IMG/VR virus record: IMGVR_UViG_3300023184_000039
Location: 62,001-126,000 of that record
Length of the DNA stretch: 64,000 nt
From: a virus
Reading direction: 5' to 3' (one strand)
Every line of letters begins with the position of its first letter. Position 1 is the first letter of the stretch. Positions 1,820 through 62,144 of this stretch are shown piece by piece. The translations under genes and the position numbers were made by a program. A model generated the notes under the pieces. The model worked only from the letters and a program-made list of their open reading frames with translations, ran no database searches and was not told the origin of the DNA.

Positions 1820-1924
1820 TTTCAGTATTTAGATATAGTGAAATGAGCCCGTAAAAGGCATTAGTTGCACTGAAGGCAAGTAAAACTGGATTACTATTTA
1901 TATCAATCCTAACGATTGGTCTTT

Positions 1925-13879: not shown

Positions 13880-13956
13880 ATACCCTTGCGAGCAAGTGAA
13901 GTATACTAGGCTTGTATAATTAGAAGTTAATAATTTTATTCTAAAGGATTGGTTTC

Positions 13957-15525: not shown

Positions 15526-15542
15526 CGATAAAGCGAGTTCCC

Positions 15543-23558: not shown

Positions 23559-24197
23559 ATGAAAAAAGAAACAGAAGAACAGGCATATGCACTGAGAATG
23601 GCAATCCAACTTGGGTGTGCTGGTGCCCATAAGGGTCCAGATGGCAAATGGATGCCGTGTAAAGACATGTCCGAAATGGAGCGACTGTCAAATGCCGCCG
23701 AGGAATCGTCATGGACTAATGACAACTCAATTTCTTCCCTAAGACGCAGGGAGCAAAGTGCGAGACTTTACGGGAAATCGGCTCTCATGGAATCAATTGA
23801 AAAAGGGAAAAAGCGCAAACCAAAAAAGAAGGGATGGGAAAAACTTACCGAGAAACCACTTCCCGTTGGGGGCATTGGAACACTCCCCAGTGGGGGCTTG
23901 TATGGCATGACATCAAAGGGTTTGGCTGTACCCATCTCGGCGCCACGTGATGCCGACCCAGATGTTTTTTCTGACCCTGATTCGGCACGGATGCGAGCCA
24001 GACAACTTGACTGCATCGGCATAAGTCGAAGGGTTTCAAGGAGCGGGAAAACGATATGGACACCCTGCACCAATATGAGCGACTATGCAAGGTCTGCCGG
24101 AACAACGGCATTGGGCAAAAAAAACAAGAAAGAAAAAGAGCGCAGGGTGGTCAGAACAATCGTTAATGAGGAACTAAAAAAACGTACAAAACGGTAG
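23559..24197 (+). CDS. Basic protein with two related Cys-x-W-x-P-C motifs
   Basis: 212 residues, Lys-rich. It contains two copies of one short motif: LGCAGAHKGPDGKWMPCKDM near residue 18 and LDCIGISRR...KTIWTPCTNM near 150. In both, a Cys in a (L)xCxG context is followed about 14 residues later by W-x-P-C and a Met. The spacing suggests a small structural knuckle or disulfide, possibly metal binding. Last gene of the portal-to-capsid string; a 116-nt spacer separates it from the capsid gene. The function is unknown. Confidence 0.7.
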   Translation: MKKETEEQAYALRMAIQLGCAGAHKGPDGKWMPCKDMSEMERLSNAAEESSWTNDNSISSLRRREQSARLYGKSALMESIEKGKKRKPKKKGWEKLTEKPLPVGGIGTLPSGGLYGMTSKGLAVPISAPRDADPDVFSDPDSARMRARQLDCIGISRRVSRSGKTIWTPCTNMSDYARSAGTTALGKKNKKEKERRVVRTIVNEELKKRTKR

Positions 24198-24313: not shown

Positions 24314-25615
24314 ATGGCACAGGAAAATTTGAAGGAGCTCCAAGGAGCACTTCGTCAAAAAATGGCAGACAATAAGTCAATCGCCGACTCGTTCAAGGTC
24401 GAAGAGGGCACAGTTGTCATTAACCAAAAGCAGAAGTCAGCTTTTGATGCAAACATGAAAGACATCAAAGAACTCAAGGGTTTGATTGATGGCATGGAAG
24501 CAATGGAGCAAGTTCAGCAGTGGGGCGCACAAGCATCAGACACATCTGTTGCAGCAGCCGCAGCCGCTGGTTACTCAATCCCTAAGCAACAACTTGAATC
24601 AATCGGCGAGTCATTCTTGGCTTCAGCTGAATTCAAGGCTCTTGCTGGTGGTCGTAACGGCGCAAACATGCCAGCACCATTCCAGTACAACGGAAGATTT
24701 GATACCCCTGGTGGTTACAGCCAAAAGGACGCTTACACAGCAATGCCAAGCGGCTTTCCAACACAGTTCGGTTCAGTTCAACGTGACCCAATCGTTATCC
24801 CACCACGTCGCACAAAGCGAGTTCGTGACCTATTCCCAGTTCGTACGACCACATCGGCAATCATTGAGTATTTCCGCATGACTGGTTTCACCAACAACGC
24901 AGGCATGGTTCCAGAGCGCAACGGCGATACATTTGCCGCGAAGCCACAATCAAGCATGACGTTTGAAGGTGTTCAGACATCGACACGGACAATGGCACAC
25001 TGGGAAGCAGCACACAGAAATGTTCTTGCTGACGAACCACAGTTGCGTTCAATCATTGACAACGAGTTGATGTACGGTCTTCGTCTCCAAGAGGATTACC
25101 AAATCCTTAACGGTGACGGCAGTGGAGAAAACCTTCAGGGCATTTTGACCACTCCTGGCATTCAGACCTACAACTGGTCAATGGGTGCAACCTTGCCAGT
25201 CAAGGACACCAAGGCCGATGCAATCCGTCGTGCTGCAACCCTCTCCTTCTTGGCTTACTACGAGCCATCTGGTGTTGTCTTGCATCCAAACGATTGGGAA
25301 GACATCGAAATGACCAAGGACAGCAACGGTCAGTACCTGATTGCAGTTTCGGTTGCATTGGGTGGAGAACCAAAGGTATGGCGCTTGCCAATCGTTGAGA
25401 CTCCAGCAATGACTGAAGGAGTTGCTCTTATCGGTTCATTCGGTCAGGGTGCACAAATCTACGACCGTGAGCAGGCCAGCATTCGCATTAGCGAACAACA
25501 TGCTGACTTCTTCATTCGCAACGCAATCGTCATCTTGGCCGAGCAACGTCTCGCCCTTGCTGTCAAGCGTCCAGAGTCGTTTGTGAAACTAACCTTCAAT
25601 AACGCACCTGCTTGA
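24314..25615 (+). CDS. HK97-fold major capsid protein
   Basis: 433 residues. The N-terminal 110 residues are a charged helical delta-like domain ending in an Ala-rich patch, probably removed by the prohead protease. The body matches HK97-type capsids: IVIPPRRTKRVRDLFPV, a beta-rich segment with RTMAHWEAAHRNVLADEPQL, then the DYQILNGDGSGENLQGI loop and GVVLHPNDWEDIEMTKD, and a C-terminal RLALAVKRPESFVKL strand, a typical closing segment. AAGGAA precedes the ATG. Codon use is more uniform and C-ending than in neighbours, as expected of a highly expressed gene. A strong terminator follows, and the 116-nt leader (24198-24313) leaves room for its own promoter. Confidence 0.95.
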   Translation: MAQENLKELQGALRQKMADNKSIADSFKVEEGTVVINQKQKSAFDANMKDIKELKGLIDGMEAMEQVQQWGAQASDTSVAAAAAAGYSIPKQQLESIGESFLASAEFKALAGGRNGANMPAPFQYNGRFDTPGGYSQKDAYTAMPSGFPTQFGSVQRDPIVIPPRRTKRVRDLFPVRTTTSAIIEYFRMTGFTNNAGMVPERNGDTFAAKPQSSMTFEGVQTSTRTMAHWEAAHRNVLADEPQLRSIIDNELMYGLRLQEDYQILNGDGSGENLQGILTTPGIQTYNWSMGATLPVKDTKADAIRRAATLSFLAYYEPSGVVLHPNDWEDIEMTKDSNGQYLIAVSVALGGEPKVWRLPIVETPAMTEGVALIGSFGQGAQIYDREQASIRISEQHADFFIRNAIVILAEQRLALAVKRPESFVKLTFNNAPA

Positions 25616-33946: not shown

Positions 33947-34969
33947 ATGGCACACGAGATTGAAACGACCAACGGACAAGCGAGAATGGCTTACTCTGGG
34001 CCTTCCGTGCCATGGCACAAACTTGGAACATCAGTACGAGACTTGCAGACCATACCCGAAATGCTTCGTGCGGCTAATGCTGATTTTGATGTTGTAACCG
34101 CAGATGTGGCTGCCGTTGATGCTCACGGAAGATTCATTTTAAATGCTAATGGAACTCCGGTTATTGTCCCTAAAACCCGTGCCACAATTCGTGTAAACGA
34201 TGATGGCTCATTTGATGGACTCGGAACAGTTGGTACCAGATACGTCGTACAGCAAAATAGGGAAGTTCTAGAACTTGCACTTGCTGTGTGTGGCGTATCA
34301 AAGGGGCAGGCGGTTCTTGATACATGCGGCGTACTCAACGGGGGGCAAGAATTCTTTGCCACGATTGACCTGGGACAAGTAGTAATTGACCCAAACGGTC
34401 TCAAGGACGTGGTTAAGCAATATATTGTTGTACACAATGGGCATGATGGAAAAACACCAATTTCATTTGCGAACACACCAATACGTGCAGTCTGTAAGAA
34501 CACAGTTTTCGCAGCAATGCAGTCGTCGGCAAAGGTGAGTGCTCGACACACAAAGAATGCCGACCTCATTGTCACGAACGCGCGCGAAGTTTTACAATTA
34601 TCAAGCCAGTCCTCTGATTCAATTCTTAGTTCGGCGACCAAATTGTCAAAAATAGAAATCCCTAACAGGTCAAATGCCTTCATGAATGCCGTGAACAATG
34701 TTTTTATCCAAAATAAAAACGAAACAAAACTTCAGCAGAAAAACAGAGAAAACATCATTGACGAAATCATCACCCTTTATTCGGCACCCAATAATGCTGG
34801 CGGTTATGGGTATACGGGGTGGTCGCTTTACAATACGATTGCCGAATACCTTGACCACCACAGGAATGCCACCGCTCAAGAAAAAGCAATGGCATCAATG
34901 GACGCCTATTCGTGGGTAAACAAGAAGAAATCACTTGCCCACGAAGCAATCCTTTCCCTAGCAAACTAG
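33947..34969 (+). CDS. DUF932 (TIGR03299) phage/plasmid protein
   Basis: 340 residues from ATG 33947. Opens MAHEIETTNGQARMAYSG, then PWHKLGT, the standard start of TIGR03299; later KQYIVVHNGHDGKTPI and RAVCKNT match the family. Such proteins are common in phages and plasmids of actinobacteria; function unknown. TATCCT lies exactly 6 nt before the ATG, with no ribosome site, so leaderless translation is predicted. Confidence 0.9.
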   Translation: MAHEIETTNGQARMAYSGPSVPWHKLGTSVRDLQTIPEMLRAANADFDVVTADVAAVDAHGRFILNANGTPVIVPKTRATIRVNDDGSFDGLGTVGTRYVVQQNREVLELALAVCGVSKGQAVLDTCGVLNGGQEFFATIDLGQVVIDPNGLKDVVKQYIVVHNGHDGKTPISFANTPIRAVCKNTVFAAMQSSAKVSARHTKNADLIVTNAREVLQLSSQSSDSILSSATKLSKIEIPNRSNAFMNAVNNVFIQNKNETKLQQKNRENIIDEIITLYSAPNNAGGYGYTGWSLYNTIAEYLDHHRNATAQEKAMASMDAYSWVNKKKSLAHEAILSLAN

Positions 34970-35032
34970 GAAACATGGGAACATTGGAGAGAACATCATC
35001 TAAGGGGAAACCCAGAATACGGTGGGCAGCAA

Positions 35033-35473
35033 ATGAGTGATTTCCAACAAGGTGACGATGAGTGGATTGAGTATGAACCACTCATCCCTATTGACAAGGA
35101 AGATGTCGTTAGTTTTCTGGCCGATTTTGTCTCTGGTGCCGTAACTTCGGAGAGCATGTACCGGGACAATTTTTGCGCCATCGCCGCGGGCAAGGCATAC
35201 CACGAATTTGGGCCAGAAGGGTTATGTCAGTTAATGCTGGCGATTGACGACAGGGCAAACTGGATAAGCGACATCATTATTGACGCTGCGGACATTGATG
35301 ATATTTTATACAAAAAGTACGGAGTATTTGGGGGCGATGTTGTGTTTAAGGCAAGGCAGACCAATGCCATGCAGGAAATGAACCAAAAGATGTGGGCATT
35401 AAGGCGAAAATATACAAAGAAAATCGCCGACGAGATATATCAGGTTGATGCAATTCCAACCGAAAGCGAATAG
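35033..35473 (+). CDS. Hypothetical protein
   Basis: 146 residues, acidic, no family recognised. Helix-rich with a basic stretch near the C-terminus (LRRKYTKKIADEIY). GGTGGG lies 8 nt before the ATG. It precedes the regulated 35573 gene. Confidence 0.62.
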   Translation: MSDFQQGDDEWIEYEPLIPIDKEDVVSFLADFVSGAVTSESMYRDNFCAIAAGKAYHEFGPEGLCQLMLAIDDRANWISDIIIDAADIDDILYKKYGVFGGDVVFKARQTNAMQEMNQKMWALRRKYTKKIADEIYQVDAIPTESE

Positions 35474-35509
35474 TTGACCTTTCATTCCGTACGCCGTACA
35501 TCTGATAAA

Positions 35510-35535
35510 ATTGTGAGTACTGAAGAACTCACAAT
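35510..35535. promoter_or_regulatory. Perfect 9-bp inverted repeat upstream of 35573
   Basis: ATTGTGAGT (35510-35518) and ACTCACAAT (35527-35535) are perfect complements around an 8-nt loop, 38 nt before the next gene's ATG. Lacking a T-run, it is more likely an operator or an mRNA-stabilising 5' hairpin than a terminator. Confidence 0.6.
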
Positions 35536-35572
35536 CTAGAGGAGTTCTCGGACCTAACTAAGGAGTAATAAA

Positions 35573-36004
35573 ATGTCAGCTTACGTACAACAAACACTCG
35601 CAATGACCGTAAATGGTGTAGTTGCCACAACTAGCACGGTAGTCGTTCGGGTTCCATTTTATGCTCGCGTTCGCGGCATCACTGCGGCCGTGGGAACTGC
35701 TCCTGTAGGTGCGGCACTCAACGGAACTGTTCGCAAGGCATCCGCATCAGGAACTGTTGTTGGAACTTGGTCAATCGCAGCCGGAGCAACTTCAGCTGTA
35801 GCAACAATGTCAAGCGTGGATGGTGCAGACCAACTCGCAGCAGATGACTTGCTCGTTCTTGTTGTAGCCGCTGTTGGTTCAAGCACTGCAGGTTCAAACT
35901 TGACAGCACTTATTCAATGGGATGCTTCGGCAGACCAAGACGGAGTAAACGTCCACTCGAACACGGTTCACCGTGGTGGTCATGCTGGAAGCGTTGTTTC
36001 CTGA
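35573..36004 (+). CDS. Probable virion protein, Ala/Val/Thr-rich beta protein
   Basis: 143 residues, very poor in charged residues and rich in Ala, Val, Thr, Ser and Gly, with alternating strand pattern throughout, as in capsid decoration or jelly-roll-like phage proteins. It has a strong AAGGAG ribosome site, an upstream 9-bp hairpin and its own terminator, so it forms a single-gene unit likely expressed highly. A late structural role is my best guess; there is no sequence family I can name. Confidence 0.65.
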   Translation: MSAYVQQTLAMTVNGVVATTSTVVVRVPFYARVRGITAAVGTAPVGAALNGTVRKASASGTVVGTWSIAAGATSAVATMSSVDGADQLAADDLLVLVVAAVGSSTAGSNLTALIQWDASADQDGVNVHSNTVHRGGHAGSVVS

Positions 36005-36040
36005 TAATTAAAAATTTCTAGTAGTAATTTAGGACATCCG

Positions 36041-36079
36041 AAAATACCAGTGGAGTTAAATCCACTGGTATTTTTGTTT
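36041..36079 (+). terminator. Rho-independent terminator
   Basis: AAAATACCAGTGGA (36041-36054) and TCCACTGGTATTTT (36061-36074) pair perfectly over 14 bp around a 6-nt loop; a T-rich stretch follows. It ends the 35573 transcript. Confidence 0.92.
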
Positions 36080-36085
36080 ATATGG

Positions 36086-36097
36086 GATAATTATTAA
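36086..36097 (+). promoter_or_regulatory. -10 box GATAAT 6 nt before ATG 36098
   Basis: GATAAT at 36086-36091 and a 6-nt gap to the ATG, with no ribosome site; same geometry as the other predicted leaderless starts. Confidence 0.45.
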
Positions 36098-36391
36098 ATG
36101 ACAATAAATAAAAACACAAAAACGGTTGTCAGATTCCTTGCCATTGGAATAATGCTGTCTGGGATGCTTTCCTGTGGGGACTCCTATCGGTATAAATGCC
36201 AAGACCCAGACAATTTTGGCAAGCCAGAATGCGTCCCACCAGGTTGCCTAGCAGATAACTCATGCACCTCAACCGTTCTTGGTTTTGACCCATTGCTTCC
36301 AGAACAAACGAATCAAACAGAATTGGTTCCAAACCAATCGCAGGACACTATTCCGTGCCCTTGCCCAACACAGGAGACTACAGCGCCATGA
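36098..36391 (+). CDS. Small lipoprotein, spanin-like candidate
   Basis: 97 residues. An N-terminal signal with hydrophobic core (VVRFLAIGIMLSGMLSC) ends in a lipobox-like MLSC at the cleavage point. The mature part is Cys/Pro-rich (YKCQDPDNFGKPECVPPGC) and ends Pro/Thr-rich. Similar proteins occur next to small membrane proteins in aquatic phages. Translationally coupled (ATGA) to a holin-like gene, so a lysis or envelope function is plausible, but not demonstrated. Confidence 0.72.
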   Translation: MTINKNTKTVVRFLAIGIMLSGMLSCGDSYRYKCQDPDNFGKPECVPPGCLADNSCTSTVLGFDPLLPEQTNQTELVPNQSQDTIPCPCPTQETTAP

Positions 36392-36696
36392 GTAAACGAT
36401 TTACACCAGCAGAACTTGATGCACGCCTAAAGTTTATTATTGGATGCCTACTGGGGGCAGTGCTCCTTATGACGACTGGGGCAATACTCTATGCACTCGT
36501 ATTCGTGACTCAGCCAATTGGAGCGCAAGCCGAGAACGACAAGATGTTCTTTGGTGTTCTTTCAAGCGTTGCAACATTCATCACTGGCACACTTGCTGGA
36601 TTGATGATTTCTACTGGCAAAGGTACCGGCGATGATGATGGCAATGGAATCCCAGATGCAGAAGAAAAACAATTAGGGAAACCTAACAAGTCGTAA
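36388..36696 (+). CDS. Two-TM membrane protein, holin candidate
   Basis: 102 residues from ATG 36388 (ATGA overlap with the lipoprotein). Starts SKRFTPAELDARLKFIIGC, then two hydrophobic segments (about residues 14-38 and 58-80) separated by a short polar loop, and a charged, Asp/Gly-rich tail DDDGNGIPD. Size and topology fit a holin; the Ca-loop-like tail is unusual for one. Function inferred. Confidence 0.68.
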   Translation: MSKRFTPAELDARLKFIIGCLLGAVLLMTTGAILYALVFVTQPIGAQAENDKMFFGVLSSVATFITGTLAGLMISTGKGTGDDDGNGIPDAEEKQLGKPNKS

Positions 36697-36702
36697 TTAA
36701 TG

Positions 36703-36770
36703 GCAGCGATAGTAAGTCCTAGACTCAAAACTTACAATTAGGACCTGTGAATATATAGTCTGCTATCGGT
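36703..36770 (+). other. Structured non-coding segment, possible switch
   Basis: This lies in the 374-nt gap 36697-37070. CGATAG (36707-36712) pairs with CTATCG (36763-36768), enclosing two mutually exclusive stems: GTAAGT/ACTTAC (36712-36717 with 36730-36735) or GTCCTA/TAGGAC (36716-36721 with 36739-36744). No tRNA fold or known RNA is recognisable. The remainder of the gap holds one weak minus-strand ORF and the methyltransferase promoter. Confidence 0.3.
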
Positions 36771-36805
36771 TAAGCCCGTAAGCAACAATAAAATTTGCCT
36801 TACTG

Positions 36806-36964
36806 CTAATTCAGTCGTTCTCTTTCAAAGTGCACAAAGTTGCGCTTCTCTTCGGTTCCATACGTGTGTTGGTCTACGACACGCATAAGTCCGGCATGTG
36901 CGGAGATGACCAATGTGGCTGATATTAAGCAGAAAATAAGCATCCCAGTATTATGGCATTGCAT
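36806..36964 (-). CDS. Possible small membrane protein
   Basis: 52 residues from ATG 36964: a hydrophobic segment (MLIFCLISATLVISAHAGL) and then a charged tail ending FVHFERERLN. The signal-anchor-like layout and clean composition look coding, but no ribosome site is visible and the frame is short. It would be the only minus-strand gene between 33.5 and 39.1 kb. Confidence 0.38.
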   Translation of the reverse strand: MQCHNTGMLIFCLISATLVISAHAGLMRVVDQHTYGTEEKRNFVHFERERLN

Positions 36965-37058
36965 TCTATATAGTGATGAAACTAACCCCAGTATCACTGA
37001 ATAAGATACCCCTCATCTCCCATTTTGCCATGTGTCCGCTTGCGAGTTCTTTATGGGC

Positions 37059-37070
37059 TAATGTGTCGCT
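37059..37070 (+). promoter_or_regulatory. -10 box TAATGT 6 nt before ATG 37071
   Basis: TAATGT at 37059-37064 and exactly 6 nt to the methyltransferase ATG; no ribosome site upstream. Confidence 0.45.
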
Positions 37071-39185
37071 ATGAACATTTTGAGTCTTTTCTCTGGCGTT
37101 GGTGGTTTTGACATGGGTCTTGAGGCCGCTGGATGGAAAACTATCTTTCAATGTGAAATAGATAAACATTGTCAAACTGTTCTTGCCAAACACTGGCCAG
37201 ATGTTCCAAAGTGGGGAGATGTTTCGACACTCACTGGTAAACATATTATTGAAATGGCTGGACCGCCAGATGTTGTTGCATGGGGAAGTCCGTGCCAAGA
37301 CCTCTCCGTCGCTGGAAAGCGCGCAGGATTGGAAGGAATGAAATCCGGCTTATTCCATGAAGGAATCAGAATCATCAAAGAAATAAGGGAGTTAACAAAC
37401 AATGAATATCCAAGAATCTCTATATGGGAAAATGTCCCAGGAGCCCTCTCTTCCAACAACGGAGCTGACTTCGGGGTCGTCCTCGACGAAATGGCTAAGG
37501 CAGGGGGCTTGGCGCTTGAATGGGCCGTGCTGGATGCACAGTACTTCGGAGTGCCCCAAAGACGACGCCGCATCTTCCTGTCTACTCTCTTCCATTCTGG
37601 AGATGCCAAACGAAGTGGAATCAAAATTTTTCCTGTCGCCGAAAGCTTGCCAGGGCATATTACGCCGCGCCCAAAGAAGGGGAAAAGAGTTGCCGCCAAT
37701 TCTTCGGAGAGCACTCAACAGAGTGGCGAGTCAAATGCCTTCAGAATGACCGCATTCGGCGAATATGCCGATGATGAAACAGCATCAGCAATGAAGGCGC
37801 GCGATTACAAAGATGCAACAGATTTGGTTGTAGAGCGAACGGAATATGCTCAAAGCGTATTTGCAAAATCACGACATGCGAAAGATAAAGACGATTTTGA
37901 AACATGGGTTGACGGCACTGTGTCGCCAACACTGAACACATTTGAAAACCATGTTGATACTCGTTCAACCGTTGCCATTGTTAATACAAACCCATTAATC
38001 ATTGATGGAACGCGCGTGGACGATGTTCGTGTTTATGACGATGGAACTACACCAACACTCACCCACCGAATGGGCACTGGTGGCAATAACACACCGATGG
38101 TTTTTGATGACAGAACACCAAGTACGCCAGCCACCCCGATTGTTCTAGATAGAGCTTCTTTTAATCAGGGTCCAAATGCACTATGGGAACCACTGATGGA
38201 GGAGGCACAATCAGTTCCGGCTCTTGTTGCGCGTGGTCCACACGCAGTTCTTGATACATCAACACAACCAATCGTATTTGAGCCTGGTGCGATGTCTCGC
38301 ATGAAGAGTGACTACTACTCAGACCATGTTGCACCAACCTTGCGCGCGCAGATGGGCGACAATCAGCCAGCAGTAGTACAACCCGACAATGGAACAATCG
38401 TATTTAACGATGACCGTAGAATTGGGCCGACCATACACGGTGATACCGTGTCCACGCTTCAAGCATTCATGGGAACGGGTGGAAACAACACTCCAATGGT
38501 TGCACAAATCCCAACTATCCCGATTCAAGATGGTCGTGACATTGAGAAAAACCAAAACGGCTTTGGTGTAGGGGAAAATGGCGACCCTTCGTACACCATT
38601 GACACAACCGGAGCACAAGCAGTCGTACAGACAGTTGTAGATGGACCAATGCTTTCATTTGACACTCAGTTTGGGTCAAATGCCAATGTCACCGAGAATG
38701 TCGCGCCCACCCTTAAGGCTAGTCAGCAATCCCCAAGTGTTGCATACTCAATTCGTGAGGATGCCAAGGCAAACAACTTCTCAGCAACCGAAATCAATGT
38801 TGCAAATTCACTATCAGCACTACAGCCAGCAATAACGTCTCATCACGCACAAACGATTATCACCGATGAGATATTGCAGTACGACGGATACAACCAAAAA
38901 CTTGAAGGCGACGGTTCATACAGGTCGTTGCGAGTTGGGCGAGATGCAAGCGACTTCGTATCACAAGGAGAAATGGTGGTCAGGCGTTTGACGCCCCTAG
39001 AGTGCGAAAGACTGATGGGATGGGGCGATTTTCACACTAAATTTCGTGCTGACGGTTCAATCGTTCCAGATACTCAACGTTACAAAATGTGCGGCAATGG
39101 AGTTGCCAGTCCATGCGCTGAATGGGTAGCGAAACAACTTATCGCCTACCTGCAGGACAGCACGGACGCTGGGCAATCGGTGTGA
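37071..39185 (+). CDS. DNA cytosine-C5 methyltransferase with repeat-filled middle
   Basis: 704 residues. Catalytic half: motif I LFSGVGGFDMG (6-16), motif IV GSPCQDLS with catalytic Cys75, motif VI WENVPG (119-124), motif VIII QRRRR (163-167). Motifs IX-X lie at the C-terminus (RLTPLECERLMGWGD and MCGNGVASPCAEWV, about 640-690). Between them, about 430 residues replace the usual 100-200-residue target-recognition region, with diverged repeats of the form PTL-x4-MG-x-GGNNTPMV. It would methylate phage DNA to 5-methylcytosine, most likely against host restriction; no partner endonuclease is present. A minus-strand ORF overlaps its 3' end. Confidence 0.93.
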   Translation: MNILSLFSGVGGFDMGLEAAGWKTIFQCEIDKHCQTVLAKHWPDVPKWGDVSTLTGKHIIEMAGPPDVVAWGSPCQDLSVAGKRAGLEGMKSGLFHEGIRIIKEIRELTNNEYPRISIWENVPGALSSNNGADFGVVLDEMAKAGGLALEWAVLDAQYFGVPQRRRRIFLSTLFHSGDAKRSGIKIFPVAESLPGHITPRPKKGKRVAANSSESTQQSGESNAFRMTAFGEYADDETASAMKARDYKDATDLVVERTEYAQSVFAKSRHAKDKDDFETWVDGTVSPTLNTFENHVDTRSTVAIVNTNPLIIDGTRVDDVRVYDDGTTPTLTHRMGTGGNNTPMVFDDRTPSTPATPIVLDRASFNQGPNALWEPLMEEAQSVPALVARGPHAVLDTSTQPIVFEPGAMSRMKSDYYSDHVAPTLRAQMGDNQPAVVQPDNGTIVFNDDRRIGPTIHGDTVSTLQAFMGTGGNNTPMVAQIPTIPIQDGRDIEKNQNGFGVGENGDPSYTIDTTGAQAVVQTVVDGPMLSFDTQFGSNANVTENVAPTLKASQQSPSVAYSIREDAKANNFSATEINVANSLSALQPAITSHHAQTIITDEILQYDGYNQKLEGDGSYRSLRVGRDASDFVSQGEMVVRRLTPLECERLMGWGDFHTKFRADGSIVPDTQRYKMCGNGVASPCAEWVAKQLIAYLQDSTDAGQSV

Positions 39186-39255
39186 TGAATCTTGGGCCTG
39201 GCTCTGCTGGTTCTTCCACAGGCAAAACCGGCGCTTCCTCTTCGTTTTCTTCCAT
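39139..39255 (-). CDS. Possible small acidic protein antisense to methyltransferase end
   Basis: 38 residues (starts MEENEEEAPVLPVEEPAEPG). It overlaps the 3' end of the methyltransferase by 47 nt on the opposite strand. The ATG is preceded by TATGAT and exactly 6 nt (GTTTAG), the geometry of predicted leaderless starts here. Composition is strongly acidic and Pro-rich. Too short to judge by sequence alone; support comes mainly from the promoter. Confidence 0.4.
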   Translation of the reverse strand: MEENEEEAPVLPVEEPAEPGPRFITPIAQRPCCPAGRR

Positions 39256-39267
39256 CTAAACATCATA
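39256..39267 (-). promoter_or_regulatory. -10 box TATGAT, minus strand
   Basis: TATGAT (complement of 39262-39267) followed by GTTTAG and an ATG at 39255. It is AT-rich around it; the facing plus-strand promoter is 70 nt away. Confidence 0.4.
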
Positions 39268-39303
39268 TAACAAAAAAATATTTTTTATGAACATCAAAAA
39301 ACA

Positions 39304-39318
39304 GATAAATCTAACCAG
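39304..39318 (+). repeat. Direct repeat flanking dioxygenase, left copy
   Basis: GATAAATCTAACCAG; 14 of 15 bases match the copy at 40118-40132, right after the dioxygenase stop. The pair brackets a single gene. Confidence 0.6.
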
Positions 39319-39330
39319 AGATGAAGTCTG

Positions 39331-39342
39331 TATATTATTTAT
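39331..39342 (+). promoter_or_regulatory. -10 box TATATT 6 nt before ATG 39343
   Basis: TATATT at 39331-39336, then ATTTAT and the ATG; no ribosome site. Leaderless geometry. Confidence 0.45.
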
Positions 39343-40113
39343 ATGGTGGCACCAGTGAGCATCTGCGTAATTCCCAATATTGACATCAACGAGATGCCCC
39401 CAACCCCGTCATCTGGAAATGAAATCAAATTACCAGAAGTAGAAAAAGTGCTGCGCGCGTATGCGAATCATTATGGTCATCCGTTTGGATACGTGCAAGA
39501 ACAGGGCTACGAGGTATTCCAACAGATAGTTCCTATCAAGAGACTGGCATCTGTACAGATATCTTCTTCATCAACCACCGAACTTGACTTACATACAGAA
39601 ACGGCCTTCCATCCATATAGGCCAGATTTCGTATTATTGTTGTGTCTTCGAGGCGACGCGGCGGCATTCACTACATATGCCAACCTGGAAACAATTCTCA
39701 GAAACCTAGGGGAGACAACACAAAGAGTATTACATCAACCTTGGTACACAACCCGGATAGATGAATCGTTTTTGCTCAATGGTCAAGAAGATAAGACGTT
39801 TACTCTGCCCGTGCTCCAGGGAGAGGGAAAAGATACCAGCATCGTCTATGACCGTGCATTTATGAAAGGCACTACAACGGCATCTCGTAATGCCCTAATT
39901 GAACTTGAAGAAGCAATCAAGAAAAGCACACGCAAGGTTGCCTTAAAAACCGGTGAATTGATGGTGATTGACAATAAGACAACCGTTCATGGTCGATTAC
40001 CGTTCACCCCTAGGTACGACGGCACCGACAGATGGATAATGCGCTCGCTTGTGACGAAGACTCTCCCACCAAGCGACCAGATGCACAAGGAAACCATCAT
40101 CACGGTTCTGTGA
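39343..40113 (+). CDS. Asparagine-oxygenase-like Fe(II)/2-oxoglutarate dioxygenase
   Basis: 256 residues of the clavaminate-synthase-like group that includes AsnO and VioC, which hydroxylate free Asn or Arg. Ligands by eye: His84-x-Glu86 in LDLHTETAFHPYRPD, His216 in TTVHGRLPF, and Arg234 in DRWIMRS for 2-oxoglutarate. The HTE/HGR pattern and the HPYRPD segment after the first ligand are typical. Substrate unknown; an amino acid is more likely than DNA, although the gene directly follows a DNA methyltransferase. Flanked by direct repeats, suggesting recent insertion. A second, only distantly related dioxygenase lies at 28.2 kb. Confidence 0.85.
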   Translation: MVAPVSICVIPNIDINEMPPTPSSGNEIKLPEVEKVLRAYANHYGHPFGYVQEQGYEVFQQIVPIKRLASVQISSSSTTELDLHTETAFHPYRPDFVLLLCLRGDAAAFTTYANLETILRNLGETTQRVLHQPWYTTRIDESFLLNGQEDKTFTLPVLQGEGKDTSIVYDRAFMKGTTTASRNALIELEEAIKKSTRKVALKTGELMVIDNKTTVHGRLPFTPRYDGTDRWIMRSLVTKTLPPSDQMHKETIITVL

Positions 40114-40524
40114 GCTGGATAAATCTAATCAGGTTTGGTGAACTCAAAATAGTTTCACATGTGCCCCCACCACCACAGAGGGGTTGGCGAAAGTCCCGAT
40201 ACGTGCCCCGTAGAAGGGGGTGTAAGGCATACCTAACAGCACTTCTTTTGATGTTACTTTCTGGTAACTTATCATTACCCTGTGGTAACTTGATGATATA
40301 CCACCCACATATCAGATACACACATCATATGTAGGTATTTGACACACAACGATATTTGTATTAGTATTCTATCCAGGATATTCGTTCACTATACAAATCA
40401 TTGTTCACTATAACGACCATTGTGTCTTATCTCAGATGATTGTTCCTTCTCATACACATCAGATACACCACACATACACATCGTTCCCTTGTGATGTCTC
40501 GTTCTAACTTACAATAGACAGATA
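40114..40524 (+). other. Repeat-rich non-coding control region
   Basis: 411 nt with no convincing gene. Contains GGTAACTT at 40263 and 40284 (each in a small hairpin with GTTAC or TTACC), GTTCACTATA at 40384 and 40403, ATCAGATACAC at 40311 and 40458, and CATACACATC at 40451 and 40473. A short GC stem CCCCGTAGAAGGGG lies near 40207. The right half is AT-rich, with TACAAT 9 nt before the ATG of the giant gene. It could be a replication origin or an array of regulator sites upstream of the 8-kb gene. Confidence 0.45.
40118..40132 (+). repeat. Direct repeat flanking dioxygenase, right copy
   Basis: GATAAATCTAATCAG, 5 nt after the dioxygenase stop; matches 39304-39318 except for one base. Confidence 0.6.
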
Positions 40525-43500
40525 ATGAATAACCTTGAGATACTGCTTGATGTCAAAGAACTAGGTCGTTACCAACGTAAGGTAATGACCCCATTAGATG
40601 AAGCATTTGACCCTGATGCTATTGATGGTGATGGTGATGGATTAGTTCAAGATAGAACTCCATTTGAGAGACCTGCCATTATCACTGCGATAACAGAGAC
40701 AGCACAAAGGATAAGTCAAGGTATCCGTGATGCTGGTCGTCTCAATCAGAAGCGCTCACACAATGTACATCGTGAGAGGCTAAGGGGTAAGAGCCATAGT
40801 GAGATAGCAGAGACACTAGTACCTAATGACTATGCCTCACTAGCATCATCCCTTACAGAGATGGCTATACAAGACCTAGGTGTTGATGCCTCACCTGCTG
40901 CCATACAAACTTGGATACAGGGGAAAGTATTTGACCTCACGGGTGATGCTACGGGTGATGTATTTGACTTCACACCTAAGCACATACGTAAGTTGCGTAA
41001 GACAGTAGAGAAGCACCTTGATGAACTACCTATGTTCAGACGACTAGTAGATGACTATGGTATGCCCCCCTTCTTCATACTAAAGAAAGGTGACTTCTCT
41101 GGTATCACATCACACGGCTTTGGTATAGGTGTGACTACTGGTGGTATGGGGTGGACAGATGGTAAGGGCAATCGCATACCCATACTTCGTTCCATATCAC
41201 TCAAACTTGGCTACTTTGATAAGTCTGGTGGTAGCAATAAGACAAAGAGATGGCTTACTGATACTGGTGTTAGGGGTACTGTGCTACACGAGTATGGTCA
41301 CTACCTAGCAGGTGTGCTGTATGACGACATTGTGAGTAACAAGTACGGTAAGTGGGAGGGTAGTCCTGATGTAGTGGACTTTGCTAGGTACATCAATATG
41401 GACTCCTTCAGTATCTCTACTCAGAACAGATTTCCCAATGTAGATGGCAAGGTAGGTAAGTCAATACCCGATGTGTTCTCTGCTATGTTCCATAAGCCTG
41501 AGTGGGATGAGGCTTGGAGTAAAGGCGACCTTCCTGATGAACTACCTCACGTACTTTCTTTCTATTCAGAAACAAACCCTTCAGAACAGTTTGCTGAAGG
41601 AATGGCGGCCCTTCTTTCTACCGACCCCAAACAACACAAACTTGTGTCACCCGGATTTGAGGATATGGTTAAACAACTTGTTGGATTAGAGACTGATGTA
41701 CCCTTTCAGTCTCAAGGTAGTAAATACAATGTAGACACCCTTGACTTACCACAAGTGACACAAGCACTTGGTTCTAGAGGTAGAGACTTCACAACACCTT
41801 CAGGAAACAAAGAGTTATGGCATCCAATCACCAAAGATATGGATGCTACAGAACTAGCAGAACGAATACATCCATCTAGTGCTGAAGAACTCATCTCAAT
41901 AATGGCTGAAGAAAACCACAGAATAACACCCACCTCATCCATCGAAGACCACAAGGCTTTGGTAGGACAAGTTCTTATGGAACTGTTTGAGGTCAAGTCA
42001 GTAAAAGAACTTGACTCAATGATGGATTTGTCAAAGAGGGGAGACAGGGTTGGGGCAATGGAACAACTCCTTCTAGACAACCCATCTTTGATGCTCCTAC
42101 ACAATCAGTATGGAGCGCCACCCCTCATACACCTCACACCAGAAGCATATGATGATGCTGCCAGAAGCCTAGAAGGAGAGTTTGCTGGAATACACGTCAT
42201 AGACCCACGACTCAATATTGGAACAATACTCCTATCACCCAACACCACCGACCTATTAGATAATTACAACACACCACTCCCACTAACTGGTGAAACTTTT
42301 CAGGAACTGCTTGACAACCGGCCATTGGGACAACGACTTGTTCTCTCTTATGCTAAGTGGAGAGGAAAGTATCCCAAGTCAGTGACATATATGTCTATTG
42401 GTAATAATGTTGAGCAACTCTACGCACACGAATATGCTCACTACCTACACGAACAAATGACGGCATCTCTCCCAATGGAGGGAAACCGTGAAAGACGAGC
42501 ATTACTCAGGGCATACTTGAGCGCAACTTGGGAGGAATTCTTTGCTGCTGTTGACAGACCAGATTGGGCTGAAGCATACACAAACAGAAGGAAAAAGGAT
42601 TTACCAGACGACTATCCGTTTGTTGACAGCGCATATGCCTTCTCAAACCCGTTAGAAATGTTCGCTGAGTCTTTCGCTGCTGCTACGGCTAGTGACCCAG
42701 CAATAAGGGGCGCAGTCAGTCCAGAAATGAACAGACAGATGGCGATGATGCTTGGACTTGACCCAGAACAAGCACTATATGAGCAATTAGTAGCCAATGA
42801 TGATGTAGTTAGCGCCTCACTTGACATATCAAGACCACTCGGCTCTAGGAGTAAGAAAAAGGACCGAGAGTTCTGGGAAAAAATGTATCCAGACAGAACC
42901 GCAGCAGAGTGGAAAGCGATTGAGGAAAAAATACAGCAAGAAAGAGATAATACCTATCTAGGTAGACCACTCGGGTCTGCCCCAAGTTTGACTGCTTCAG
43001 AGGCTATTCGTTCGCTTGATGAGGTAGCAAAGATAGAAGAACGTGACCTCATCACTACTGATGACCCAACACTACGACCCGGAGTACGAAAACTTGACAC
43101 AAAGGCTTGGGATGGCAAGGACATCTATCAAACAGCAGATGCTGGTGATGCGCTTGCCCTCATAGCAAACGGTCATTACGTTGAGATGACACACGAAGAA
43201 GGATTGTGGCTCGCCCTCGCAGACATAGGCAAGAGATGGAAAGAAATACAGAAGAGCAGCGGCAAGGAAATAAAAACACTCAATGCTTGTTTGTTTATGA
43301 CCGTTGATGCCAATGGTAAGTCAAACAACCTGTTCTGTCGAGGACACCACGATATTGCTCGATTGTCAATGCCACAAGTTGGTGGATATATGACAAAAGA
43401 AAATCAGGTCTTGCTACAAGCCTGGAGGTCAGGACTTACCGAGAACAGAGGTGGTGCTCACGATGCCTTCATTGGCGGCAATAAAGCCGTAGAAGCAATG

Positions 43501-46500
43501 AAGGAACTTGGAAAAGGAATTGTTGAGGCAACCATCACCGAAGATGAGTGGAAGGTACTTGATAAAAAGTGGAGAAAGAAAATAGAAACACCAGAAGAAC
43601 GAGCATTGTACTTTGCTAATACATATATGCCATTGGTGGAGGCTGACTCAACACCAGAATTCATACGCTTTCTAAAACAAAAAGGAATAGGCACGGGTGA
43701 TGTAGAGCTTGTAGATGTATTTGATGATGTCAACTCCACACAAAACGAATTAGTTCTTGACAAGATTTCTGGTATTGGTGGGGCAATGTTGTCCAAGTAT
43801 AGGGAGTTTCAAACCAGACGCGAACAGATACTTAGTGATATATCCCTATCTCAAACAGAAAAAGATACTGCTATTGCTGCGGCTCTCAAAGATTTCCAGA
43901 CCATCCCGCAGATGTTGCCAATTATCATATCCAAAGACGGATACATATTTGACGGTCACCACAGAGCATTTGGTAGACGTATATTTGAGTCTCAACTAAA
44001 CGAAGAGGAACTCAAAGAAGTAAAAGCAATGGGGTTCCAGGTCAGAAGAAGCGAAGCAAACATCTCCGAACTGTTGGGTATTGGAAAAGCATATCAAGAC
44101 CATATGGGTGTCGCAGCGGCACCGGGTGGCCCAAAGAAGGTTGACCTATATGTTGACCACACAGAAGACATTGGTGACATATCAAACGAAGAGTGGGTAC
44201 AACATCAGAAAGAAATCTTTGATGGTCTTGATGACATCGTTGCTGGTTACCATCCAGCAGACTATTGGAAACCAGCAGGTGTTGAGGAACTTGATGTCGA
44301 AGGAAATGTAATAAAAAGAACTGCTGACTCGCCAGCAATTCAAACTGGAACTCAATCAAACGAACCAATAAGAAAAATGTATAGAGGAGAAGCAAGAAAT
44401 ATATTTGAGGAAGGCGATAGACAAGGGGCAATGGCACTTGGCTCTCAATCAGAGCAACCAAGTGAACCATCATCGTGGATGATGTCAATTATGGGTTCTG
44501 GACCCAACGGCCCATTGGTTGATGTAAAACCACCAAAGCCAGATACGAGAACAAGTGGGTTCAATAAGAAATTACCAAGATGGGTAAGTACATTACTTTC
44601 CCTACATCCGTTTATTGACCCAGAGGTGCTTCAGTCGGTTCGTGACCGCACACCAAAACCAGTCATACCTTCGTCATATCCACAGGTAATGAAGATGACA
44701 GGCAAAGAAAGACGACTACATAACACCAATCTCAAAAAGATACTTGACACAATAGAACTATCGGATGATGTAGTGAAGAACTTGTCTTTAATGGGCAGGA
44801 ACAACACAAATGCACGTGACAATGCTGCCAATGTTTATCTACACTCACTTGGTGTTGACCTCAATGACTCAAAAGCAGTTGAGAAAGCCCTCAATGGTGG
44901 TTTTGCTGATTGGATGTCCACTAAACCCTATAGCGAAATAGAAACATTGAGTGAAATAACCCCGAGAGAGTGGAATAAGTATATAGATGGAACGCCAAGT
45001 CGTGGTGGCGAATCAGATATGAAAGAATTGGTTGCCACATTGTCTCCAATGGAAGCCAGAGAGATAGCCACATCACTCCGTGACTACACAAGGGGCTTGG
45101 AACGACCACTTACTGATGATGAATCAAAGAAACTCAATCAAATAATTGAGACACCTGTATTTAGAGCGGCACTCGGTGTCAATGATGGTGAAGATTCAGC
45201 ATCTGTTGTTAGAAGTTTCCTCTGGGATGATGCCGACAAAGCAGAACGAGGGCCGCTTGGTTCTATGTCTGAAGCCAAGCCCGTTGTTGATTACAATGAA
45301 GCACGCAAGGCCGGTAGAAGCAAGATATTCAGAAAGAAGTACAAGTCCCGTGCCGAGATGTATGACGGCGCATCAACCGAACAACAAGTACGACTGTCTG
45401 TTCCAAGAACGGCTGAAGAACATCACACAATGATGATGGATGCCACAGTTGACCGGCTCAACTTGCAACTCAAACTCAAAAATGCTGGAATAAGTGAAGA
45501 ACCAGTTGATGTACGACGGTTCATAGATATGTCCGACCCACTCAATCCACGGGCAAAGATTGCCGCAGTGCAGCCGCTTGTTGACCACGTCATCAAGACA
45601 GCAAAAGAGTATGAACCAGACTTCTCCCCAGAAGCAATCAAGCAAGCAGAAGCAATGGTCACCCAGACACTCAACTCATCTCCCGCCTTGCGCCACTTCG
45701 CTAGTGAGTACGGGTTACCCCCAGTGGTTATTGGCTCACAAAATGCCCTTGACAGACAGATGGTTGTGTATGCATTAAAGATATCCAAGCCAAATCAAGA
45801 AATGAACACCATCTTAGATAAATATCAAGGCATCAGGCAGATGATGGATGAAACACGTATTCAGGAAATACTTGATGACCCAGTCGCAATGGAGAAGATA
45901 CGCAAAGCATATGACAACGGGACTAACCCAATCGCAGGCGCATACATCAACGCCGCAAATATGTTGGTTATCTATCCCGGCTCAAGCAGCCATAAGGCGT
46001 TCCTTGACGGCAAGCCAATTGACCCGGCTTACGTCCCAAAACCAGGCGACCACACCGTACTTGACAACAGTATTGAGGCTACATTGTTACACGAATACGG
46101 GCATTACTTTGACCAACGTGTAGGTATGTTGTTGAGTGAGGGCGGCCTTGACCCAGAGAGTGATATGGCAAAAGCATATACTCGACTTCATCACAGCAAC
46201 ACTCTTGATGCGCTGACATCCAAGCGCGGCAACCCATTGTTCACATCAAAGGACAATCCAGTTATTGAAACAACGTACGGGCAAACAAATACGCAAGAAA
46301 TGGCCGCAGAAGCAATGAGCGCCGTCTTCTCAAACAACCCGCACGCTATGGAAATGCTCAACAAGCCGCTACTTGACGATGTATATACGCTACTTGGTAT
46401 CAAGTCAAGCGAACGTAATGGCATTACCGAACGGGACTTGCCGTGGCTCAAGGATGCAAAAGATAAGCGCAGCGAACTTGTTGGGGATGGCGCGCCATCA

Positions 46501-48606
46501 ACGTGGATGCAATCAGTTATGGGTTCCGGGCCGCTTGGCTCTCGACCAGCCCGGGATGCGCGGCCGCCTCGACCAACGCTAAAAAAACTCAAAAAAGACA
46601 AGCGTTACAAGAAGCTCCCGGATGAAACGGTGAAGCTGTCTGGCAAGGATTACACATTTCATCACGAATCGATTGCGTCTGATACATTTGTCGTCAAACA
46701 CAACGGGACAACAGTGGGAATACTCAACGTCGGAGAAGGTTTAGCCGGAGAGCCGCGAATAAGCAGCCTCACCGTACACGGCAATCACAAGACAAGCGGC
46801 CTCGAACAAGGACTTGTCGAGTTCGCACACGGGTATTATCCATCACTTCGTAGCGGTAAGCGTACGTCTGAAGCATTTGCGGCGCGTCAGTTCCCAGATG
46901 CCTTTGAGGATTTGCCAGATGGTCATTCAATAATCGAACTTCCTGATGGAGTTCCCGGTTCACCAGAGTACGTTACATCTCTTTCTGAACAGCTGAAGCG
47001 CGCTAAACGGGACAAAACCGTTGCTGTGTTTGAGTACAACAATGAAATACGGCGCGTTACTGTTGATGATGTGTACGAACAGAACGGCCAGACGTATATG
47101 AAGGGCTTTGACTCCACTCGAAACGACGGCCGCACATTCCGAGTCGACCGCATCTTTCGACCAAAAACAACAAATGTTGTTACAGAGGACGGCACAAAGA
47201 CAGCCGTCGCAAAGAAGCCAAAAGCCCCACGTAAGCCCGTTGCTCCATACACGGGTAAAGCAGAGGAGTTATTCAAGGGTGCTACAAGTTACCGTGAGGT
47301 ACACGACCGACTCACTACGGGTGAACTGTACTTCTATGACTTTGAGACAACCGGGATAGTCAACCATCCAAACGGTGAAATGAAATCACCCGGTGCGCCA
47401 GTGCAAATTGGGGTAATCAGGGTTGTTGATGGAAAGGTGACCGACCGCCACGATGTCTATATGAACCCAGGAGTCCCGTTAAGTCAGTGGTCTAAAGACA
47501 ACCTCAAGCGAACCGACCCAGACGGAACACAACACCCGCTTACAGATGAGTGGCTTGCAAAGCAGCCCTCAATAGCCGACCAAATCAAGGGAGCTCTTGA
47601 CTTTGTGGGCGGCGAAGGCAAAACATTTGGCGGTCAATACCAGATATTTGACCAAGATGTAATGAGGGAAAATCTTTCACCAGAAGAATTTGCTCGATGG
47701 CAACGTGTTGCAACCGGGTTTATTGATAGCAAGGGTGTTGTTGACCATCTATTCCCTCGATTTGATAAAGATGCGCCGCAAGACAATCGACTTGGAACAA
47801 TGACTAAACACTTCGGAGTCCCGTTGAGCAACTGGCACGACGCATCAGCTGATGCTGAAGCATCTTGGGCTGTAATCGAAGCGGCCGTACGTCGAGCCGC
47901 AGAACGTGAAGAACGCGGGGAGCCGCTACAACAAGGGCTGCGTGACATCGCGGCGACTCGAGCAGCGCACTCTGATTTGATGAAAAAGTACGATAATCAA
48001 CTTAGTGAGTTCCATCAATCTGTCGAACAGATAAAGAAAGAAACAGAGCAAGCATCAAAGGCTCTTGGTTCTCGCTCATCTGATGAAAAGATAACAACCG
48101 GAACACCAAAACTCAAGTACGTTGGCAAGAACACCGGCTCAAATGACTTCGTCAATGAGAACAGCCGCATCGTACAGTTCGGGACTGGCAAGAACACACG
48201 CAACTACTTGCTCTATAACGACCGGGACTCGATATATGTTATTGATTATGATAAATCTGGGCCGCTTGATGGGTTTGAGCCCAGAAAGATGCCAAAAGCT
48301 TGGATTGTTGGAGTTATGACTACCTGGGACAATCCGAGCGATGAAAAGAAACACGAAATATCCAACATTGAGGTAAAGAAATCCCATCAACGCCGCGGAT
48401 TAGCTACAGCAATGATGACTTTCTATCAAGAAGCATTCCCGGAGCGTAACTTGCAGCACTCAGACGTCCTTTCAGAGGACGGTAAGGCATTTAGGGCTGC
48501 AACAGAGGCCGCTGATATTGAAGATGCAGCCATATCCGGTAGAAAATCTGTAGCAAAAGCCGGCAAGGAAGCAGCCCAATCCCTAGCGTCTGCGGGTGCT
48601 AGATAA
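40525..48606 (+). CDS. Second giant multidomain polyvalent polyprotein
   Basis: 2,693 residues. An N-terminal acidic loop FDPDAIDGDGDGLVQD parallels the one in the 12-kb gene. Three related modules each pair a Y-G-x-P-P segment with a zinc-metallopeptidase motif: HEYGH 255-259, HEYAH 635-639, HEYGH 1856-1860. Between modules two and three lies a ParB/sulfiredoxin-like DGHHR (1143-1147). After the third come an acetyltransferase-like segment (about 2035-2130), a WYL-like beta barrel (about 2150-2213), a DnaQ-type exonuclease with DFE (2272-2274) and a later HDASADAE, and a GNAT segment with QRRGLATAM near 2623. About eight LGSR-type linkers separate parts, and SWM/TWM-x-S-x-MGSGP occurs twice. 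No protease of the S78 type is present, so any linker cleavage would need the other gene's product. Codon style changes visibly along the gene. Confidence 0.85.
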   Translation: MNNLEILLDVKELGRYQRKVMTPLDEAFDPDAIDGDGDGLVQDRTPFERPAIITAITETAQRISQGIRDAGRLNQKRSHNVHRERLRGKSHSEIAETLVPNDYASLASSLTEMAIQDLGVDASPAAIQTWIQGKVFDLTGDATGDVFDFTPKHIRKLRKTVEKHLDELPMFRRLVDDYGMPPFFILKKGDFSGITSHGFGIGVTTGGMGWTDGKGNRIPILRSISLKLGYFDKSGGSNKTKRWLTDTGVRGTVLHEYGHYLAGVLYDDIVSNKYGKWEGSPDVVDFARYINMDSFSISTQNRFPNVDGKVGKSIPDVFSAMFHKPEWDEAWSKGDLPDELPHVLSFYSETNPSEQFAEGMAALLSTDPKQHKLVSPGFEDMVKQLVGLETDVPFQSQGSKYNVDTLDLPQVTQALGSRGRDFTTPSGNKELWHPITKDMDATELAERIHPSSAEELISIMAEENHRITPTSSIEDHKALVGQVLMELFEVKSVKELDSMMDLSKRGDRVGAMEQLLLDNPSLMLLHNQYGAPPLIHLTPEAYDDAARSLEGEFAGIHVIDPRLNIGTILLSPNTTDLLDNYNTPLPLTGETFQELLDNRPLGQRLVLSYAKWRGKYPKSVTYMSIGNNVEQLYAHEYAHYLHEQMTASLPMEGNRERRALLRAYLSATWEEFFAAVDRPDWAEAYTNRRKKDLPDDYPFVDSAYAFSNPLEMFAESFAAATASDPAIRGAVSPEMNRQMAMMLGLDPEQALYEQLVANDDVVSASLDISRPLGSRSKKKDREFWEKMYPDRTAAEWKAIEEKIQQERDNTYLGRPLGSAPSLTASEAIRSLDEVAKIEERDLITTDDPTLRPGVRKLDTKAWDGKDIYQTADAGDALALIANGHYVEMTHEEGLWLALADIGKRWKEIQKSSGKEIKTLNACLFMTVDANGKSNNLFCRGHHDIARLSMPQVGGYMTKENQVLLQAWRSGLTENRGGAHDAFIGGNKAVEAMKELGKGIVEATITEDEWKVLDKKWRKKIETPEERALYFANTYMPLVEADSTPEFIRFLKQKGIGTGDVELVDVFDDVNSTQNELVLDKISGIGGAMLSKYREFQTRREQILSDISLSQTEKDTAIAAALKDFQTIPQMLPIIISKDGYIFDGHHRAFGRRIFESQLNEEELKEVKAMGFQVRRSEANISELLGIGKAYQDHMGVAAAPGGPKKVDLYVDHTEDIGDISNEEWVQHQKEIFDGLDDIVAGYHPADYWKPAGVEELDVEGNVIKRTADSPAIQTGTQSNEPIRKMYRGEARNIFEEGDRQGAMALGSQSEQPSEPSSWMMSIMGSGPNGPLVDVKPPKPDTRTSGFNKKLPRWVSTLLSLHPFIDPEVLQSVRDRTPKPVIPSSYPQVMKMTGKERRLHNTNLKKILDTIELSDDVVKNLSLMGRNNTNARDNAANVYLHSLGVDLNDSKAVEKALNGGFADWMSTKPYSEIETLSEITPREWNKYIDGTPSRGGESDMKELVATLSPMEAREIATSLRDYTRGLERPLTDDESKKLNQIIETPVFRAALGVNDGEDSASVVRSFLWDDADKAERGPLGSMSEAKPVVDYNEARKAGRSKIFRKKYKSRAEMYDGASTEQQVRLSVPRTAEEHHTMMMDATVDRLNLQLKLKNAGISEEPVDVRRFIDMSDPLNPRAKIAAVQPLVDHVIKTAKEYEPDFSPEAIKQAEAMVTQTLNSSPALRHFASEYGLPPVVIGSQNALDRQMVVYALKISKPNQEMNTILDKYQGIRQMMDETRIQEILDDPVAMEKIRKAYDNGTNPIAGAYINAANMLVIYPGSSSHKAFLDGKPIDPAYVPKPGDHTVLDNSIEATLLHEYGHYFDQRVGMLLSEGGLDPESDMAKAYTRLHHSNTLDALTSKRGNPLFTSKDNPVIETTYGQTNTQEMAAEAMSAVFSNNPHAMEMLNKPLLDDVYTLLGIKSSERNGITERDLPWLKDAKDKRSELVGDGAPSTWMQSVMGSGPLGSRPARDARPPRPTLKKLKKDKRYKKLPDETVKLSGKDYTFHHESIASDTFVVKHNGTTVGILNVGEGLAGEPRISSLTVHGNHKTSGLEQGLVEFAHGYYPSLRSGKRTSEAFAARQFPDAFEDLPDGHSIIELPDGVPGSPEYVTSLSEQLKRAKRDKTVAVFEYNNEIRRVTVDDVYEQNGQTYMKGFDSTRNDGRTFRVDRIFRPKTTNVVTEDGTKTAVAKKPKAPRKPVAPYTGKAEELFKGATSYREVHDRLTTGELYFYDFETTGIVNHPNGEMKSPGAPVQIGVIRVVDGKVTDRHDVYMNPGVPLSQWSKDNLKRTDPDGTQHPLTDEWLAKQPSIADQIKGALDFVGGEGKTFGGQYQIFDQDVMRENLSPEEFARWQRVATGFIDSKGVVDHLFPRFDKDAPQDNRLGTMTKHFGVPLSNWHDASADAEASWAVIEAAVRRAAEREERGEPLQQGLRDIAATRAAHSDLMKKYDNQLSEFHQSVEQIKKETEQASKALGSRSSDEKITTGTPKLKYVGKNTGSNDFVNENSRIVQFGTGKNTRNYLLYNDRDSIYVIDYDKSGPLDGFEPRKMPKAWIVGVMTTWDNPSDEKKHEISNIEVKKSHQRRGLATAMMTFYQEAFPERNLQHSDVLSEDGKAFRAATEAADIEDAAISGRKSVAKAGKEAAQSLASAGAR

Positions 48607-61910: not shown

Positions 61911-62144
61911 ATGGAACAAGAAGACTTTGATGAACTATCCGCGCCGATTATCCAGGATGCGAACGTACTCAAGACCAAAATATCCCAACTTGAGACGAAG
62001 GTAAGCGAATTACAGAAACAACTTTCAGAAGTGCTGCGCTCTGCATCAGACGTTGGCCGACTTGACAAGAGTTGGATGTCCGACAATAGTTCTCTCGGAG
62101 CTAAGGCCGGCACTATCGCTGACAGGATGAACAAGAAGAAGTAA
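61911..62144 (+). CDS. Coiled-coil protein
   Basis: 77 residues. A heptad segment KTKISQLETKVSELQKQLSE near the middle, with basic ends. Likely oligomerises. Leaderless geometry at the start. Function unknown. Confidence 0.66.
   Translation: MEQEDFDELSAPIIQDANVLKTKISQLETKVSELQKQLSEVLRSASDVGRLDKSWMSDNSSLGAKAGTIADRMNKKK

Follow-up and report, generated by a model that had tools for sequence, protein, structure and literature searches.

A lineage-specific motif in unlinked giant proteins of a tailed phage points to a cargo polyprotein that is probably cut in trans by the head protease

What is the role of a short motif that recurs along two giant proteins encoded far apart in the same phage genome? 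The question is raised by a stretch of 64,000 nucleotides (the window; positions 62,001 to 126,000 of the IMG/VR virus record IMGVR_UViG_3300023184_000039, which has 140,645 bases in all), where the gene for a protein that we call P2 begins 26.6 kb after the end of the gene for a second giant protein, P1. A sequence-only reading of the window had placed a gene of 2,693 residues at 40525-48606, some 27 kb from P1, and both the ATG-started open reading frame (ORF) and the distance are borne out here. As argued below, P2 is probably a cargo polyprotein of a tailed phage, of the polyvalent type, that would be cut in trans; the most likely cutter is the S78 prohead protease found at the N terminus of P1. 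The P2 chain is arranged as follows, with sites named by their LGSx motif.

40525 to 48606, plus strand: P2, giant putative cargo polyprotein, 2,693 residues, ATG start; two orthologues carry a different motif
40525 to 41772, plus strand: module 1 (residues 1-416), HExxH zincin-like, HEYGH at 41287
41767 to 41778, plus strand: site 1, LGSR; GFASR in the G003 orthologue, GFGSR in that of L197
41773 to 42843, plus strand: module 2 (residues 417-773), HExxH zincin-like, HEYAH at 42427, related to module 1
42838 to 42849, plus strand: site 2, LGSR
42970 to 42981, plus strand: site 3, LGSA
42976 to 44442, plus strand: module 3 (residues 818-1306), phrog_2859 match; a GHHR motif near 43954 suggests a ParB-like fold
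44437 to 44448, plus strand: site 4, LGSQ
44443 to 45261, plus strand: module 4 (residues 1307-1579)
45256 to 45267, plus strand: site 5, LGSM; GFASR in the L197 orthologue
45262 to 46539, plus strand: module 5 (residues 1580-2005), HExxH zincin-like, HEYGH at 46090
46534 to 46545, plus strand: site 6, LGSR; GFASR in the G003 and L197 orthologues; low-confidence coil in the structure model
46540 to 48069, plus strand: module 6 (residues 2006-2515), WYL-like and DEDDh exonuclease (RNase_T); 70 related loci
48064 to 48075, plus strand: site 7, LGSR; GFASR, RLSSG, GASKSTT or ISGRMG at the homologous place elsewhere
48070 to 48606, plus strand: module 7 (residues 2516-2693), GNAT acetyltransferase

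Seven LGSx sites (four LGSR and one each of LGSA, LGSQ and LGSM) separate the recognised domains of P2, with sites 2 and 3 enclosing a short linker before module 3. This punctuation had been recognised in the sequence-only reading, which counted about eight copies rather than seven and located those at 41767 and 42838 exactly, those given as 45253, 46540 and 48063 being off by 1-6 bases. Exact LGSR occurs four times in P2 against 0.067 expected in shuffles of the protein (log10 Poisson P of about -6.1), and 17 times in P1 against 0.13 expected (log10 P of about -29.5), where it is the most over-represented 4-mer, with GSRS and PLGS also among the top. Across the whole record, LGS[RMQSG] has four matches in the 38,179 residues outside P1 and P2, and the motif appears at most about once per ORF there. 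The 31 LGS copies have 23 different DNA spellings and are thus not a copied DNA repeat; variation of this kind in codon usage indicates that selection acts on the protein. Around the sites, disorder-promoting residues are more frequent than at random places in nine of the 10 proteins tested, and the P2 sites at residues 2004 and 2514 fall in the lowest-confidence coil of a C-terminal structure model, a poor one (mean predicted local distance difference test score, pLDDT, of 48) that was used for linker position only.

With RNase_T, WYL, GNAT and three HExxH modules, the P2 chain holds several distinct enzymatic domains, as is characteristic of polyvalent proteins. It has no S78 domain but does have the HExxH modules (41287, 42427 and 46090), so that the earlier description of P2 as lacking a protease holds for the maturation protease and not for zincin-like domains, and P2 does not have the form of a polyprotein that processes itself by an embedded protease. 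Module 4 gave no significant family match, and PDB sequence searches with modules 2, 3 and 6 gave no useful match. A tblastn search of P2 against 50,697 phage records returned zero matches, as did a direct scan of viral contigs with P2; relatives were found instead through alignments of the protease and the exonuclease. P1, its protease domain and the head-region genes lie as follows.

1916 to 13879, plus strand: P1, protease-fused giant putative polyprotein, 3,987 residues, 17 LGSR; five KTSC domains, ArdcN, MPTase-PolyVal
1925 to 2440, plus strand: S78 prohead protease domain, putatively HK97/assemblin-like, at the P1 N terminus, with invariant His and Ser
15543 to 19673, plus strand: conserved head-region protein with HExxH, a rival candidate for the cutter, without the motif in this phage
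24314 to 25615, plus strand: major capsid protein, without the motif

The P1 N terminus matches Pfam Peptidase_S78 at 33.6 bits (gathering cut-off 21; E = 5e-8) and phrog_3244, a head maturation protease. Its candidate catalytic residues H60 and S124 are invariant in 27 sequences, isolates included, and the domain lies within a head gene cluster, with the portal gene (20-1819) upstream and the capsid gene nearby. An S78 protease was found in 31 of the 31 searched records of the phage group, in most of which a repeated motif of this kind, hereafter a code, is clear.

If the motif is a signal read by one enzyme, relatives with a different motif should be informative. A scan with the protease domain recovered 80 related loci from environmental sequences, with 67-86% identity across the matched segment, and some 60 related environmental phage records formed the comparison set, their contigs being retrieved in stretches and all ORFs scanned for codes. 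The lineages carry GFASR, GLAS, GMAS, [FL]SSG, GMRS, GSKS(T) or [IV]SG[RK]M. The relatives' protease-fused ORFs do not use LGSR, having instead GFASR, GLAS, GMAS, [FL]SSG, GFSS or GLRS/GMRS, codes that resemble one another in a hydrophobic residue followed by a small residue or Arg and then Ser. Wherever a lineage has enough sites, its protease-fused ORF and its unlinked giant ORFs carry one and the same code, which varies from lineage to lineage, as the following site counts illustrate.

G003, code [FL][AG]SR or GFAS: protease-fused ORF 19, second ORF 5
G023, code GLAS: protease-fused ORF 9, second ORF 10
G024, code [FL][SA]SG: protease-fused ORF 16, second ORF 9
G036: protease-fused ORF 16, second ORF 8
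G047, code G[MFL]RS: protease-fused ORF 22, other ORFs 16, 6 and 5
G052: protease-fused ORF 4, other ORFs 10 and 5
G064: protease-fused ORF 12, other ORFs 6, 4 and 3

In a permutation test, each protease-fused ORF was represented by its top exact 4-mer, which was counted in the rest of six proteomes; the diagonal sum was 68, and none of the 720 assignments did better (next 60, mean 14.7). The proposal that two genes of the window share one processing code is thereby supported, through the lineage-specific match between protease-fused and unlinked ORFs. That a single lineage-own motif marks all the giant proteins suggests a single phage protease cutting at a group-specific signal. Five genomes (G026, G037, G043, G044 and G045) have a protease ORF with zero sites and other ORFs with several, which means that the S78 protease, if it is the cutter, works wholly in trans there. 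In the protease tree, the window protease is nearest to the GFASR group, one member of which (G001, P1 at contig positions 10815-22319) mixes FASR, FGSR, LASR and one LGSR, plausibly an intermediate state between GFASR and LGSR.

The exchange of codes can be followed at individual sites. The P2 orthologue of G003, 34-37% identical in the two main alignments, has GFASR at places matching P2 residues 415, 2004 and 2514, and that of L197 (34-42%) has F[AG]SR at places matching 415, 1578 and 2004; both orthologues belong to GFASR lineages. The exonuclease module, found at 70 loci, has codes on either side that number at least seven across the phages, its two edges reading LGSR, GFASR, RFSSG, RLSSG, SLSSG, ISGRMG, VSGKMS, GMRS or GSKSTT according to lineage. 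Wherever the record is long enough, the code at the exonuclease edges is that of the record's other giant ORFs. Six records with an exonuclease homologue and no repeated code also lack this S78 clade, two of them having no S78 match and the others only distant ones. Codes that change together at numerous scattered positions across several genes are difficult to account for unless a single agent recognises the sites.

From these patterns we infer the following course, from packaging through cleavage to ejection, including the bond that is cut and the enzyme that cuts it. P2 would be taken into the prohead and there be cut in trans, at the L-G-S-x sites in its disorder-prone linkers, by the S78 protease from the N terminus of P1; the same enzyme would cut P1 at its 17 LGSR. 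Serine would most likely become the new N terminus (LG|SR), and the released enzymes may afterwards be ejected alongside the DNA, to act against the host or counter its defences. A cut of the form x|S at these sites would fit the preference of known prohead proteases for Ser after the cut: the SPN3US prohead protease gp245 cleaves at AXE|S, with Ser preferred after the cut (PMC10052503), and the capsid protein of phage P1 (the virus, not the protein named here) is cut at E120|S121, the predicted protease being Pro (PMC9024508). More tentatively, each lineage might possess a cleavage code of its own, evolving jointly with its head protease, with cargo exchanged between phages being re-tagged with the local code, such that a phage releases its own cargo alone and is spared cross-processing by co-infecting phages; we regard this extension as possible but somewhat doubtful.

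Several observations weigh against the proposed processing of P2 by the S78 protease. The assemblin-like fold match of this enzyme is weak, the best PDB matches of the domain being herpesvirus proteases at E = 0.1. The capsid protein, the usual substrate of such an enzyme, lacks the code and was rejected as a code-bearing substrate; its N-arm boundary is identical whatever the code, and so either the protease needs a second type of site or the capsid is not cut there. Codes are weak or mixed in some lineages (G007, G010, G017 and G020), the P2 site at 772 has no counterpart in L197, and the records are fragments with partly common ancestry, so that the lineages are not fully independent. In addition, every coded genome in which a homologue was found has an HExxH protein by its head genes. 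This last point favours a reading in which the shared code does mark cleavage sites but a metallopeptidase does the cutting, be it the MPTase-PolyVal domain in P1, the HExxH modules in P2 or the protein at 15543-19673; the proposal by Iyer et al. that MPTase domains process polyvalent proteins (PMC5512222) favours it too. We consider such a cutter unlikely. MPTase-PolyVal is absent from the coded genomes G023, G030, G043 and G044, two of which reach 132-138 kb, and was thus rejected as a universal cutter; several coded genomes lack P2-type HExxH modules; and S78 is the established head-maturation enzyme, fused to a code-bearing protein in most lineages.

A code shared across genes would likewise be required by a common receptor, and the motif could then go uncut, serving as a linker or docking element for a lineage-specific partner, for example as a packaging or scaffold-binding signal. 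The codeless capsid protein speaks for such a role, which we nevertheless judge improbable, because sites occur one at a time between modules and flank the exonuclease module on either side, as cutting needs, because the [FLM]-small-Ser core agrees with prohead-protease sites in which Ser follows the cut, and because the richest carrier has a protease fused to it. Duplication can generate short repeated motifs within one gene, and the repeats were also considered as a possible artefact, whether of duplication or gene conversion in the DNA or of composition. This reading has hardly any chance of being correct, given the varied spelling of the copies, counts far above those of shuffles and coordinated change at homologous sites; codon variation and the comparison of orthologues refute a DNA repeat or gene conversion.

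Polyvalent proteins of phages and conjugative elements have been proposed to be injected with the DNA and to be processed by embedded peptidases, assemblin-like ones included (Iyer et al., 2017, PMC5512222); both this class and the idea of peptidase processing are already known. Like P1 and P2, they are multi-enzyme chains encoded near virion genes, with MPTase-PolyVal, ArdcN and GNAT domains. In contrast, the published assemblin-like peptidase is C-terminal, whereas here the S78 protease is N-terminal in P1 or a separate gene and is absent from P2, and the passages of that account covered here mention neither a repeated site nor a code common to several genes, nor any lineage-dependent change of code (PMC5512222). 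It is likewise established that in SPN3US and phiKZ a single prohead protease acts in trans on numerous head proteins and ejected proteins that share the cleavage motif AXE| (PMC10052503). There, however, cutting serves mostly to trim off propeptides, and the substrates include capsid and portal, whereas the sites described here divide multi-enzyme chains, the capsid has no motif, and the recurrent motif is not AXE but a lineage-variable LGSx. The Dar anti-restriction proteins of phage P1 are packed in the head and ejected, DarA being cut by the prohead protease and the capsid before Ser, but they are encoded by separate genes with one N-terminal cut in DarA, in contrast to a punctuated polyprotein (PMC12810830, PMC9024508). 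MuF polymorphic toxins of temperate phages also deliver effector domains through a head-associated protein, with one variable C-terminal toxin domain per protein and no repeated code (PMC5576092). No description of a lineage-changing code common to unlinked polyproteins was found in the open literature, subscription papers being outside the scope. If P1 and P2 are processed as proposed, a large group of uncultured phages would resemble RNA viruses in its use of polyproteins, which would here be encoded by unlinked genes and marked by a site readable from sequence alone. The marks define the start and end of each cargo enzyme, and hundreds of unknown modules can therefore be excised for annotation and testing. 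The related proteases would also form a natural series of different specificities (LGSR, GFASR, GLAS, LSSG, GMRS, GSKS, ISGRM) in which the evolution of specificity is directly testable.

A second element recurs among code-bearing ORFs.

40618 to 40677, plus strand: the AIDGDGDGLVQDRTPFERPA loop, EF-hand-like in sequence, matching phrog_7924

Among ORFs of more than 250 residues that bear this DGDxDG loop, 18 of 20 have at least two code sites (Fisher P = 3e-17). The loop (AIDGDxDG) had been noted before as an N-terminal feature of both proteins; it is real, and N-terminal in P2 (residue 32), but the P1 copy stands at residue 427 (window position of about 3194), after the protease domain. It may be a prohead-targeting element or a calcium binder.

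The code was sought and not found in the isolated relatives Gordonia phages GMA6, DalanDe and ChisanaKitsune, Brevibacterium phage Cantare and Streptomyces phage Gilgamesh. In Gilgamesh (L005), the interval between portal and protease holds a 4,624-residue hypothetical protein (4764-18638), in which zero repeated codes were found. A scan of genome collections gave five loci. Three of them are close, and their contigs had been assigned to unrelated metagenome-assembled genomes (MAGs); no host is therefore inferred. The same protease clade is encoded by L341, L342 and L343, on contigs placed in Gammaproteobacteria and Phycisphaerae MAGs, which are probably viral contigs within those bins. A code-rich ORF of G047 (34352-41905; 15 GMRS) also carries pentapeptide-like GANLTDA repeats.

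Homologues of the 15543-19673 protein elsewhere contain code-bracketed cargo, such as an exonuclease, between their N- and C-terminal parts, and there is no insert in the protein of the window. Two small proteins near the capsid gene also have longer counterparts, for example in G030, G023 and G026: the 282-residue protein at 22703-23551 corresponds to a segment, and the 212-residue protein at 23559-24197 to the N-terminal part, of much longer, partly code-bearing proteins.
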